A stretch of DNA of 64,000 nucleotides from Salinicola halimionae (GTDB taxonomy: Bacteria; Pseudomonadota; Gammaproteobacteria; Pseudomonadales; Halomonadaceae), in assembly GCF_003206065.1 (NCBI RefSeq), contig NZ_PZJQ01000002.1, positions 62,001-126,000 of the forward strand. Reading direction: 5' to 3'. The notes under the pieces were generated by a model. The model saw nothing but the letters and a program-made list of their open reading frames with translations. It did not search any database and was not told the origin of the DNA. The first letter of the stretch is position 1. Each line of letters starts with the position of its first letter. A program made the position numbers and the translations under genes. This document shows positions 37,262 to 49,000 of the stretch, in pieces.

Positions 37262-37500
37262 AGGGGAAGCGATCCGGCAAGTCGGTCCTCGACTCTATCG
37301 CTTCCTGCGATGCTACTCATCCTGAGCGTTACCGGACGGCCAAACGGTCCTTCGTTCTTTGGGTTCCCACCACCGCCTGACCTCAACCCGAGACGAGCTG
37401 AGTCATAGGTGGTCCGCCGAGGAGCGAGCATCCTGCTCGTTTCCGAGGGATCCTTCCCTCGCCGCGCCTTCCTGGCGCTTCCTCGCGGTAACGTCAAGAT
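37262..37500 (-). ncRNA. CsrB/RsmZ-type CsrA-sequestering small RNA
   Basis: Read on the minus strand, this gene-free stretch is a series of stem-loops whose loops present AGGA: GCGCC-AGGAA-GGCGC (37464-37478), CGAGGGA-AGGA-TCCCTCG (37444-37461), CGAGC-AGGAT-GCTCG (37425-37439), AACG-AAGGAC-CGTT (37343-37356), CTC-AGGAT-GAG (37316-37326), ATCGC-AGGAA-GCGAT (37297-37311) and AGTCG-AGGAC-CGACT (37280-37294); an alternative CGC-GAGGAA-GCG overlaps the first. Hairpins with A(N)GGA in the loop are the binding sites of CsrA/RsmA, and an RNA with many of them is the CsrB/RsmZ class that titrates CsrA under GacA/UvrY control. A -10-like TATCTT (37501-37496) with TTGTTC 15 bases before it would start the RNA near 37489. 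The 3' end is not clear; no good terminator is seen. The plus strand would show TCCT loops, so strand is assigned with confidence. Confidence 0.8.
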
Positions 37501-37591
37501 AGGCCGTTGATGACCGGAACAATAGATTCAAATGCCTTGACCCATCTAGTGCATTTGCCCGGACCCAGCCTTTAAATAACAAATAGTTACA

Positions 37592-39079
37592 TCAATTTTC
37601 CATGCGGCTATGAAACCCGCGCTGCCGCGCCCATACGATTGCCTCGCCGCGACTGTGCACCCCCAACTTCTGATAGAGCGATGCTACGTAGTTACGCACG
37701 GTGCTGTGAGCCAACTTCAATCGCCCGGCGATGCGTTTGTCCGAGAGCCCCTCGCAGATCAGACTCAACACGTCTCGCTCTCGAGCGCTGAGGCCCGCCA
37801 AAACAGTCTGCTCCGACAAGGAGGCATCGGTGTTGGTGTCGCGAACGTTGGCCAACTTCTCGACCAGGGTGCGCGTAAACCACGAGGCATCCTTCATCAC
37901 CGCGTCAATGGCGTCAGAAAGCTGACTCTCGTAACGTTTGCGCTCGCTGATATCGACCAGCGTCAGTAGCAGACAATCGCGCATGTTGATCTTGACCGCT
38001 TCGGCCGCCAGCAGATAACTCGCTGCATTGTTCTCGTCACCGGTGCCGTGCACCTCCATGTCTTCGACACGGTCAGCCGACTCCAGAGCACTCAGCAATT
38101 GTCGGCGGGTGTGCGGCGTGAACGGAGAGTAGTCCTCCAGGCTCGGCGGATCCGAGGCGTCGACTCGTCGCACCAGACCTTTCTCGAAGGCCGCGTTGGC
38201 TTCGATCAGCGTCAAACTATCGGCGGATACCAGCGCCGTTGGCACTGGCGACATCTGGAACGCCGTCGCGAACAGCGCTTCACTCTGACGCAAGGCATGC
38301 TGAGCCTGGCGGGCGGGTTCCAGATCGGTAAAGGTAAGCAACATGCAGGCCGTCCTGTCGACCTCGATCGGCTGCCCGGCAACGATCACACATTTGCTCT
38401 CGTCGCTGCGATTGCCGAGATGCAACAGCGCTTCCGTCTGCGGAATCGGCTGACCGGCGCACAGCCTACGGATCGCCGAATCGCGCTGAGGCGAATGCGC
38501 AAAGACGTCGAACTCGTAGATCGAGCGCTGCACGACCTCCTCGGCCGTCAGACCCATCATGTCCAGAAAGCCCTGATTGACCCGAATGAAGCGCTGGTTG
38601 TCGAGCCGACAGATCAGCGCCGGTGCCGGGTTGGCATTGAAGGAGCGCTCGAAACGCTCCTCGGCGCTCATCAGTTCCGTTATATCCTCGATGATCAACG
38701 CCAATGCATCGGGCCGCCCCTCCCGAATCAGCGTCTTTCCACGAACCCGATGATAGCGATTGGCCGCGTCGGCATCGGCAGGCCGCACCTCGAGAATCAC
38801 GTCGTCGAACGACTCGCCATCGAGCAGCCGTTCCATCGGAGATCGACCCTCGCCGACCTCGTGATGATTGCGATAATAAAGATCAAACCGTTCGCGATAG
38901 GCATCGACATCCGGCCCCAGTTCCTCGAGCGTCTCGACGCCGTGCATCTCGAGCGCGGCCGGGTTGGCCCAGCACAATGCCCCGTCGGGGTTCAGCAGCA
39001 CAATGCCATCGGAGAGATCAGCGATCAGCTGATACAGCGGCGAATGACTCGCGTAACGGTCGCTTCCCAGCTCTGACAT
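37592..39079 (-). CDS. PAS-domain LuxR-type regulator
   Basis: A 495-residue soluble regulator with three PAS-like domains (YQLIADLSDGIVLLNPDG near 15; ERSFNANPAPALICRLDN near 140; ALFATAFQMSPVPTALVS near 265) and a C-terminal LuxR/NarL helix-turn-helix (GLSARERDVLSLICEGLSDK, then TVRNYVASLYQKLGV near 460). It has no receiver domain, so it senses a small molecule or redox state directly. ATG at 39079 chosen; GTG codons at 39091 and 39088 are alternatives. The CsrB-like RNA gene begins about 100 bases after its stop on the same strand. Confidence 0.85.
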   Translation of the reverse strand: MSELGSDRYASHSPLYQLIADLSDGIVLLNPDGALCWANPAALEMHGVETLEELGPDVDAYRERFDLYYRNHHEVGEGRSPMERLLDGESFDDVILEVRPADADAANRYHRVRGKTLIREGRPDALALIIEDITELMSAEERFERSFNANPAPALICRLDNQRFIRVNQGFLDMMGLTAEEVVQRSIYEFDVFAHSPQRDSAIRRLCAGQPIPQTEALLHLGNRSDESKCVIVAGQPIEVDRTACMLLTFTDLEPARQAQHALRQSEALFATAFQMSPVPTALVSADSLTLIEANAAFEKGLVRRVDASDPPSLEDYSPFTPHTRRQLLSALESADRVEDMEVHGTGDENNAASYLLAAEAVKINMRDCLLLTLVDISERKRYESQLSDAIDAVMKDASWFTRTLVEKLANVRDTNTDASLSEQTVLAGLSARERDVLSLICEGLSDKRIAGRLKLAHSTVRNYVASLYQKLGVHSRGEAIVWARQRGFHSRMEN

Positions 39080-39213
39080 GTCACTCACCACTCTTGAGGA
39101 TGCCTTGTGTCATGAATGACATTAACTCTTTCCCAATCGCGCGCATTCACATCGGCACCATCGATCCATTCAATCACGCAGCAGGCTATTCAATCACCCA
39201 GCAGGCTATTCAA

Positions 39214-48139: not shown

Positions 48140-49000
48140 ATGAATGAAAACGGGGAACAGCCATCACGCGGACCGCAGCTTTCCGAGCAGGTCGCCCAGC
48201 GCTTGAGCGAGGCCATCCAGGCCGGCGAATGGGGTCGCGGCGCGCGCCTGCCGACCGAAGCGGCACTGGGCGAGCGCTTCGGCATCAGCCGCTCGGTGGT
48301 GCGTGAAGCGATCTCGATGCTGCGCAACGGCGGGTTGGTCACCTCGCGCCGGGGCAGCGGCAGTTTCGTCGCCGAATCCCCGACGGTATCGCTGCGCCTG
48401 GCGATTCCCGATCCCGACATTCAGTCGGTGGTCGAGGTGCTGGAACTGCGCCGTCCGCTGGAAGTGGAGGCCGCCCGGCTCGCCGCCGAACGGCGAACGC
48501 CCTCTCAGCTGCGGCGGATTCGCAACGCCATGGTCGATATCGACGAAGCCGTCGAGGCGGGACTTTCCGGTGTCGATCAGGATCTCGCCTTTCATCGCAC
48601 TATCGCCGAAGCAGCCAACAACACGCATTTCACCGCCGTGCTCGATTTCTACAACCGCTTTCTGCATCACGCGATCCGCGTGACGCGCACCAACGAGTCG
48701 CTGCGCGAGACCTTCATGCTGCAGGTGGTCGGCGAGCATGAGGCCATTCTCGATGCCATCGCCGCTGGCGATGCCGAATCTGCCGCCCGCGCCGCGGCCA
48801 TTCATCTGGAACACGCCGAAACGCGCCTGCGTCAGGCGCCTACAGACCTTCTCAAGAGCGTGCTCGAGCGCGTGGAAGCGCAGCGCGGCTCGGTGGCCGC
48901 CACGCCTTCGGAATCGGGATCGGGATCGGGATCGGGATCGGGATCGGGATCGGGATCGGGATCGGGATCGACAGAACATACGGGAGACAACTCACGATGA
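48140..49000 (+). CDS. GntR/FadR-family regulator with Ser-Gly repeat tail
   Basis: A 286-residue FadR-subfamily regulator. Winged helix at residues 10-75 (LPTEAALGERFGISRSVVREAI), then an FCD ligand domain (DQDLAFHRTIAEAANNTHF near 148, GEHEAILDAIAAGD near 200). The C-terminus carries an added tail of about nine Ser-Gly pairs encoded by a perfect hexanucleotide repeat. First gene of the ltnD-otnKC operon (stop overlaps the ltnD start by 4 bases), so it regulates its own operon and divergent denD. Confidence 0.88.
   Translation: MNENGEQPSRGPQLSEQVAQRLSEAIQAGEWGRGARLPTEAALGERFGISRSVVREAISMLRNGGLVTSRRGSGSFVAESPTVSLRLAIPDPDIQSVVEVLELRRPLEVEAARLAAERRTPSQLRRIRNAMVDIDEAVEAGLSGVDQDLAFHRTIAEAANNTHFTAVLDFYNRFLHHAIRVTRTNESLRETFMLQVVGEHEAILDAIAAGDAESAARAAAIHLEHAETRLRQAPTDLLKSVLERVEAQRGSVAATPSESGSGSGSGSGSGSGSGSGSTEHTGDNSR
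48913..48966 (+). repeat. nine ATCGGG hexanucleotide repeats in the regulator gene
   Basis: Nine perfect ATCGGG units (plus a partial tenth) encode the (Ser-Gly)n tail of the GntR regulator. Six-base units keep the frame if copies are gained or lost, so tail length, but not expression of the downstream coupled ltnD, could vary between strains. Confidence 0.9.

Follow-up and report, generated by a model that had tools for sequence, protein, structure and literature searches.

A stretch of 64,000 nucleotides of the Salinicola halimionae genome (hereafter, the window) carries on its minus strand, from 37489 to 37265, an unannotated array of GGA-loop hairpins that would encode a small RNA sequestering CsrA, under the control of the PAS-LuxR regulator encoded by the adjacent gene; from the sequence comparisons given below, we assign a probability of roughly 0.63 to this reading. 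The putative 5' end of the RNA was placed by its -10 sequence, and the 3' end by the loss of conservation. A minus-strand RNA of the CsrB/RsmZ type had been proposed at this place in a preliminary description of the window, and the proposal gained support from the conservation of the GGA loops, compensatory base changes, the lack of a kept reading frame, and a model match across genera.

GGA hairpins were counted as stems of at least 4 pairs with a loop of 5-8 bases and GGA within the loop. The minus strand of 37495-37264 (232 bases, 13 GGA) has seven such hairpins without overlap in a span of 198 bases, in agreement with the seven AGGA-type stem-loops in about 200 bases of the preliminary description; the plus strand of the same interval has none. 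Dinucleotide shuffling (2000 shuffled sequences) gave 1.39 hairpins on average and 6 at maximum, and seven or more were reached in 0/2000. When both strands of the whole window were scanned (230-base windows, step of 10), the minus strand of 37264-37495 ranked first. The runner-up, with 5 GGA hairpins on the plus strand near 48830-48910, was rejected as a Csr RNA; it is a Gly-Ser coding repeat that mimics GGA hairpins. The plus strand at 48830-48980 contains a run of this Gly-Ser repeat that ends the gene for a regulator, GntR-like by eye.

The hairpins are laid out in two closed domains, in each of which a closing stem surrounds three hairpins, and one linker hairpin. Domain I (37414-37488, minus strand, as for all features below) includes hairpin 1 (37464-37478; loop, AGGAA), hairpin 2 (37444-37461; loop, AAGGAT; three pairs changed on both sides among the relatives), and hairpin 3 (37425-37439; loop, AGGAT). 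Hairpin 4 (37343-37356; loop, AAGGAC) lies in the linker and has 4 pairs, of which one is replaced by A-C in the relatives. Domain II (37272-37337) has a closing stem of 9 pairs, three of them changed on both sides, around hairpin 5 (37315-37327; loop, AGGAT), hairpin 6 (37297-37311; loop, AGGAA), and hairpin 7 (37281-37293; loop, AGGAC). Folding of the minus strand, as proposed in the preliminary description, agreed with this layout only in part: at minimum energy, the window RNA forms domain I but lacks the closing stem of domain II, which speaks against the layout as a whole. Whole-strand fold energy did not discriminate between the two strands at the locus (z = -1.64 for the minus strand; z = -2.84 for the plus strand).

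By DNA search, the element was found in 5/18 Salinicola genomes, the window genome included. The nearest named relatives at the locus, among the matches listed, were Salinicola species with 80-82% identity of the neighbouring protein. In the alignment of the five sequences, conservation is good from the operator (see below) through domain II and poor beyond it. GGA is kept in six of the seven loops in 5/5 Salinicola (hairpins 1, 2, and 4 to 7), the exception being hairpin 3, which has GGC in the four relatives. The stems vary around these loops: 8/51 pairs are changed on both sides, and 96.5% of the pair cells are paired, versus 31-44% when the partners are slid. Kept GGA loops with varying stems had been anticipated for related genomes, and the alignment agrees with this. 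Because fold energy could not tell the strands apart, G-U and A-C cells at the paired positions were counted: Salinicola had 10 and 4, respectively, and g15, another genus of the family, had 28 and 4. The excess of G-U favours the minus strand, with the caveat that the choice of this strand for drawing the pairs itself favours G-U.

These changes bear on two other explanations of the locus. An open frame of 98 codons (TTG start, 37497-37201) runs over the RNA and could be a gene for a small protein; however, in the four relatives it is interrupted by a stop after 44, 44, 1, and 1 codons, and base-paired changes are seen instead. The frame was thus largely refuted as a gene, and we consider this explanation to have almost no chance of being correct. 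The array might also be silent, namely inverted repeats that resemble a Csr RNA by chance, and the searches that found neither a consensus sigma-70 promoter before the RNA nor an intrinsic terminator at the locus would agree with this. Against it, the element is a single copy in the window genome by DNA search, its promoter and place are conserved in other genera, and the GGA loops are kept as the stems vary; a silent array is therefore very improbable.

As to the RNA class, Rfam at the gathering threshold found only a tRNA in the window and nothing at the RNA locus. At relaxed thresholds, CsrB (RF00018) matched the RNA twice, with 24.2 and 12.3 bits (gathering score, 71), and no family besides CsrB matched up to an E-value of 10 among 4227 families. 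Families of the RsmX/RsmY/RsmZ type gave no match to the RNA among these 4227. A covariance search had been suggested in the preliminary description; CsrB was indeed the sole family matched, but the score stayed below the Rfam threshold. The RNA is thus not a CsrB member by the Rfam cut-off, but judged by its anatomy it looks as if it works like CsrB/RsmZ. It shares with CsrB/RsmB the many stem-loops with AGGA or AAGGA loops, the intergenic place, and a partial match to the covariance model; it differs in its score, which is far under 71, in the two closed three-hairpin domains, in the PAS-LuxR-linked operator at the promoter, and in that no intrinsic terminator was found.

The gene in front of the RNA on the minus strand (37592-39091; putative start codon) encodes a regulator of 499 amino acids, in which Pfam detected PAS_8 in three stretches and GerE (7.4e-17). 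A protein search with this PAS-LuxR regulator found the gene in 16/201 genomes of the family at 1e-60, and the same 16 among all 275 genomes (5 Salinicola, 8 of genus g15, 2 of genus g16, and 1 of genus g9). Between the gene and the RNA lies an operator, GCAAATGCAC-N13-GCATTTG (37529-37558; about -69 to -40 from the putative start), which we propose as the site of the PAS-LuxR protein. It is followed by a weak -35-like CTATTG (37520-37525), 18 bases before the -10 sequence TATCTT (37501-37496). The latter immediately precedes the first closing stem (37488), in accordance with the preliminary description, which had placed a -10-like TATCTT before the first hairpin. TATCTT is found 18 bases after CTATTG or CTATGG in 5/5 Salinicola. 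CTAT is at an equal distance from the operator in 16/16 loci of the family (CTATTG in 8/16). Genus g15 has TATATT in 8/8 loci, after CTAT with a spacer of 18 bases in 6 and 19 bases in 2. TATNTT was absent from the expected promoter position in the g16 and g9 loci.

The operator was examined in 92 PAS-LuxR loci, namely the 16 of the family and 76 of Pseudomonas, Burkholderia, and Rhodanobacter among the 80 matches listed. Behind the LuxR gene, at least 9 of the 12 letters of the first half-site are present in 91/92 loci and at least 11 in 73/92; in 460 random segments of those loci, some of which overlap the operator itself, the numbers were 65 and 16, respectively. The second half-site stands at one constant distance in 89/92 loci, and the GC dinucleotides of the two half-sites are 23 bases apart. 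One locus outside the family (L058) has no good match (8/12), and in another (L025) the best-scoring place differs from the real repeat. Upstream of the LuxR gene, scores of at least 11 were obtained in 3/75 loci and at least 10 in 11/75. Within the family, the operator is behind the PAS-LuxR gene in all 16 genomes that carry the gene (of 275). In the window genome, the only perfect copy is that at the RNA promoter; when up to 3 mismatches were allowed, five matches were obtained, two of which are the RNA-promoter site on both strands (backward control, one match).

Outside the family, the operator stands before protein genes in the loci read. The sequence GTGCAAATGCACTA-N-GTGCAAAT, or a near form of it, precedes CsbD-like or DUF1652-like genes in Rhodanobacter, Burkholderia, and Pseudomonas. 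As far as the loci were read, a CsbD-like gene is behind the operator in Rhodanobacter (L012), Burkholderia (L013), and Pseudomonas (L066 and L073), as it is within the family in genus g16 (L137), and a DUF1652-like gene is there in Pseudomonas (L015 and L077); Pfam confirmed CsbD in L012, L066, and L137 and DUF1652 in L015, and the remaining loci were assigned by eye. The 76 loci outside the family have 0-2 GGA hairpins in 73 cases and 3 in 3 cases. A cruder measure, the number of ANGGA downstream of the LuxR gene (23 loci), was discarded as a sign of the RNA; Burkholderia L013 has 8, versus 8-9 in Salinicola, and fewer than 3 when hairpins are counted. Since the operator is present with PAS-LuxR genes that lack the RNA, it accompanies the PAS-LuxR gene and does not depend on the RNA. 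The operator is probably the DNA site of a widespread PAS-LuxR regulator family and probably older than the RNA, and its copy at the promoter probably belongs to the neighbouring PAS-LuxR sensor. The preliminary description had noted that the RNA is directly behind the PAS-LuxR gene, which might tie sensing to CsrA control; the linkage of the operator gives this suggestion strong comparative support.

The window genome also has candidate parts for a different mode of control. It has one CsrA gene (one match to PF02599, 94.6 bits), and a GacA-like response regulator gene adjoins uvrC (46% identity to E. coli UvrY; 242 bits to the NCBIfam UvrY/SirA/GacA model, below its cut-off of 280). The palindrome TAAC-N5-GTTA, possibly a second regulator site, was confirmed at 37577-37589, upstream of the operator and just behind the LuxR stop codon; it is a candidate GacA/UvrY site. 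Only the window has an exact copy; each of the four other Salinicola has one mismatch in the 8 letters. The RNA might hence sequester CsrA under the drive of GacA/UvrY, like CsrB/RsmZ, with the operator belonging to something else, and both the regulator beside uvrC and the presence of the palindrome in 5/5 Salinicola with 0-1 mismatches favour this. On the other hand, the sequence before the operator in 11 loci from other genera matches the palindrome at best with 2-4 mismatches in the 8 letters, and the element that is shared across the genera, also behind PAS-LuxR genes without the RNA, is the operator. We consider control by GacA in place of the PAS-LuxR protein to be unlikely.

For the distribution of the RNA in the family, a model was built from the five Salinicola sequences. 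The search of 201 family genomes gave matches in 24 genomes at an E-value of 0.1, of which only those in the 5 Salinicola and in 2 g15 genomes were full-length and strong; note that the genome searches with this model and with the g15 model (see below) both missed known members. When the 16 PAS-LuxR loci were searched directly, 13 matched the Salinicola model; 5 of these had been used to build the model, and hence the result is 8/11 among the others. The two g16 loci and the g9 locus gave no match in this search, and they have few GGA hairpins (2 and 2 in g16 and 3 in g9; these counts were reached by 37, 40, and 11 of 300 shuffles, respectively), in g16 barely above chance. The GGA hairpin counts were unremarkable in 3/8 g15 loci. 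Covariation within g15 was evaluated on its own with 7/8 genomes (G106 was omitted as too different), which were also used for the g15 model: 8/51 pairs are changed on both sides, including a G-C to A-U exchange in hairpin 1, and 96.6% of the pair cells are paired. RNAalifold for g15 alone recovered the closing stem of domain II with its three hairpins and paired domain I otherwise than in the proposed model. The pairing of hairpin 2 is ambiguous in this genus. The model built only from g15 matched the window RNA with 32.1 bits (E-value, 1.7e-6), the sole match in the window genome at an E-value of 0.01. The other four Salinicola were not recovered in the genome search with this model, and two weak matches were obtained in genomes without the LuxR gene (G158, 22.0 bits; G034, 20.1 bits). 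Weak matches of the Salinicola model (L096, L097, L099-L112, and L114-L116) were dropped as coding DNA or unclear by eye, and L113 is of the same type as L102. A long, clear, and different Csr-type RNA (L098, G126:C32:6756-6837) is present in another genus of the family; its GGA hairpins are strong, and by eye it has a terminator.

In genus g16 (L137 and L138), the operator is followed by few GGA hairpins and then by a CsbD gene (CsbD checked in L137), an arrangement that may stand midway between CsbD leaders and free sponge RNAs. The element upstream of CsbD in g16, and the operator itself before CsbD in Rhodanobacter and Burkholderia, would suit a leader or attenuator RNA of the downstream gene, rather than a free sponge. 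We regard this as improbable for the window RNA: about 370 bases separate the conserved RNA from the start of the next gene on the minus strand (short-chain dehydrogenase, 36893-36030), the next gene in one g15 locus (L130; thioredoxin) is in the opposite orientation, and conservation stops at domain II.

Further Csr-type RNAs were found in the genus. The search of the 18 Salinicola genomes with RF00018, in which the window RNA was not listed at an E-value of 1, gave other Csr-like stretches in 4 genomes. These led to L119, which matches 14/18 Salinicola genomes by DNA search and with which at least two further Csr-type RNAs were found in the window genome, outside the window: L153 (G000:C7:24817-25001) and L163 (around C7:857399-857448). 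L153 and L163 (relatives among L146-L164) resemble the window RNA in that they are single intergenic RNAs with GGA hairpins; by eye, they differ in their upstream sequences and in that their 3' ends carry an inverted repeat, accompanied in L153 by a T-run, and they are on contig C7, whereas the window RNA and the PAS-LuxR gene are on C4. Two other genomes have tandem Csr-like stretches about 1 kb apart (L118/L121, G007:C7:380671-381909; L123/L120, G002:C31:104160-105409). The second stretch of these pairs is very rich in GGA hairpins by eye, and in G002 it stands before a tRNA-Leu gene.

The best-known role of Csr sponge RNAs is as an output of the GacS/GacA (BarA/UvrY) two-component system. 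For the window RNA, we propose that a stand-alone small RNA is transcribed from the minus strand (about 37489 to 37265), and that the PAS-LuxR protein would bind both half-sites of the operator and help RNA polymerase at the weak -35. Since the operator is in front of a poor -35, activation is more likely than repression. The PAS domains would sense a signal, upon which the PAS-LuxR protein would most likely activate the RNA; the RNA would then sequester CsrA through six or seven GGA hairpins in its two closed domains and take it off mRNA targets. The result would be an input to CsrA that is separate from GacS/GacA, the route by which the other Csr-type RNAs of the genome are probably controlled; in Salinicola, a second input of the GacA type may act through the palindrome. 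Of this scheme, the hairpins, their covariation, and the operator with its linkage are observed, and transcription, the binding of CsrA and of the PAS-LuxR protein, and activation are inferred. A more specific form of the proposal is that the PAS-LuxR protein is a dedicated one-component regulator whose main or only target is a CsrA sponge, bypassing GacS/GacA, and that the sponge was placed under an old PAS-LuxR operator that precedes CsbD or DUF1652 genes in Pseudomonas, Burkholderia, and Rhodanobacter; on this form, we hold the odds to be nearly balanced, slightly on the side of doubt.

The class of the RNA is known, and sponges independent of Gac are known in P. aeruginosa: according to the relevant part of a 2020 review (PMC7366521), RsmV and RsmW sequester RsmA independently of GacS-GacA and are seemingly specific to P. 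aeruginosa. The window RNA would share the sponge role with them; the independence from Gac is what the review states for RsmV and RsmW. A table of the same review gives the small RNA partner in Halomonas anticariensis as unknown (PMC7366521). In Pseudoalteromonas fuliginea, a non-model marine bacterium, the Csr RNAs Pf1-Pf3, two of which were found by GGA motifs, have rho-independent terminators and a common upstream sequence, and LuxR is not named in the main text of that report (PMC11882849). In the open-licence literature, we found no sponge RNA tied to a PAS-LuxR operator and no paper on DUF1652 together with LuxR; the combination of CsbD, PAS, LuxR, and Pseudomonas gave only unrelated work by title, and 'gtgcaaatgcac' only human or other animal cell work by title.

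If the proposal is true, the locus would show how CsrA regulation can acquire a further sensory input when a different transcript comes under an operator that already exists. It would also predict where a widespread family of PAS-LuxR regulators binds DNA and add three predicted Csr-class RNAs to the genome of a halophile.
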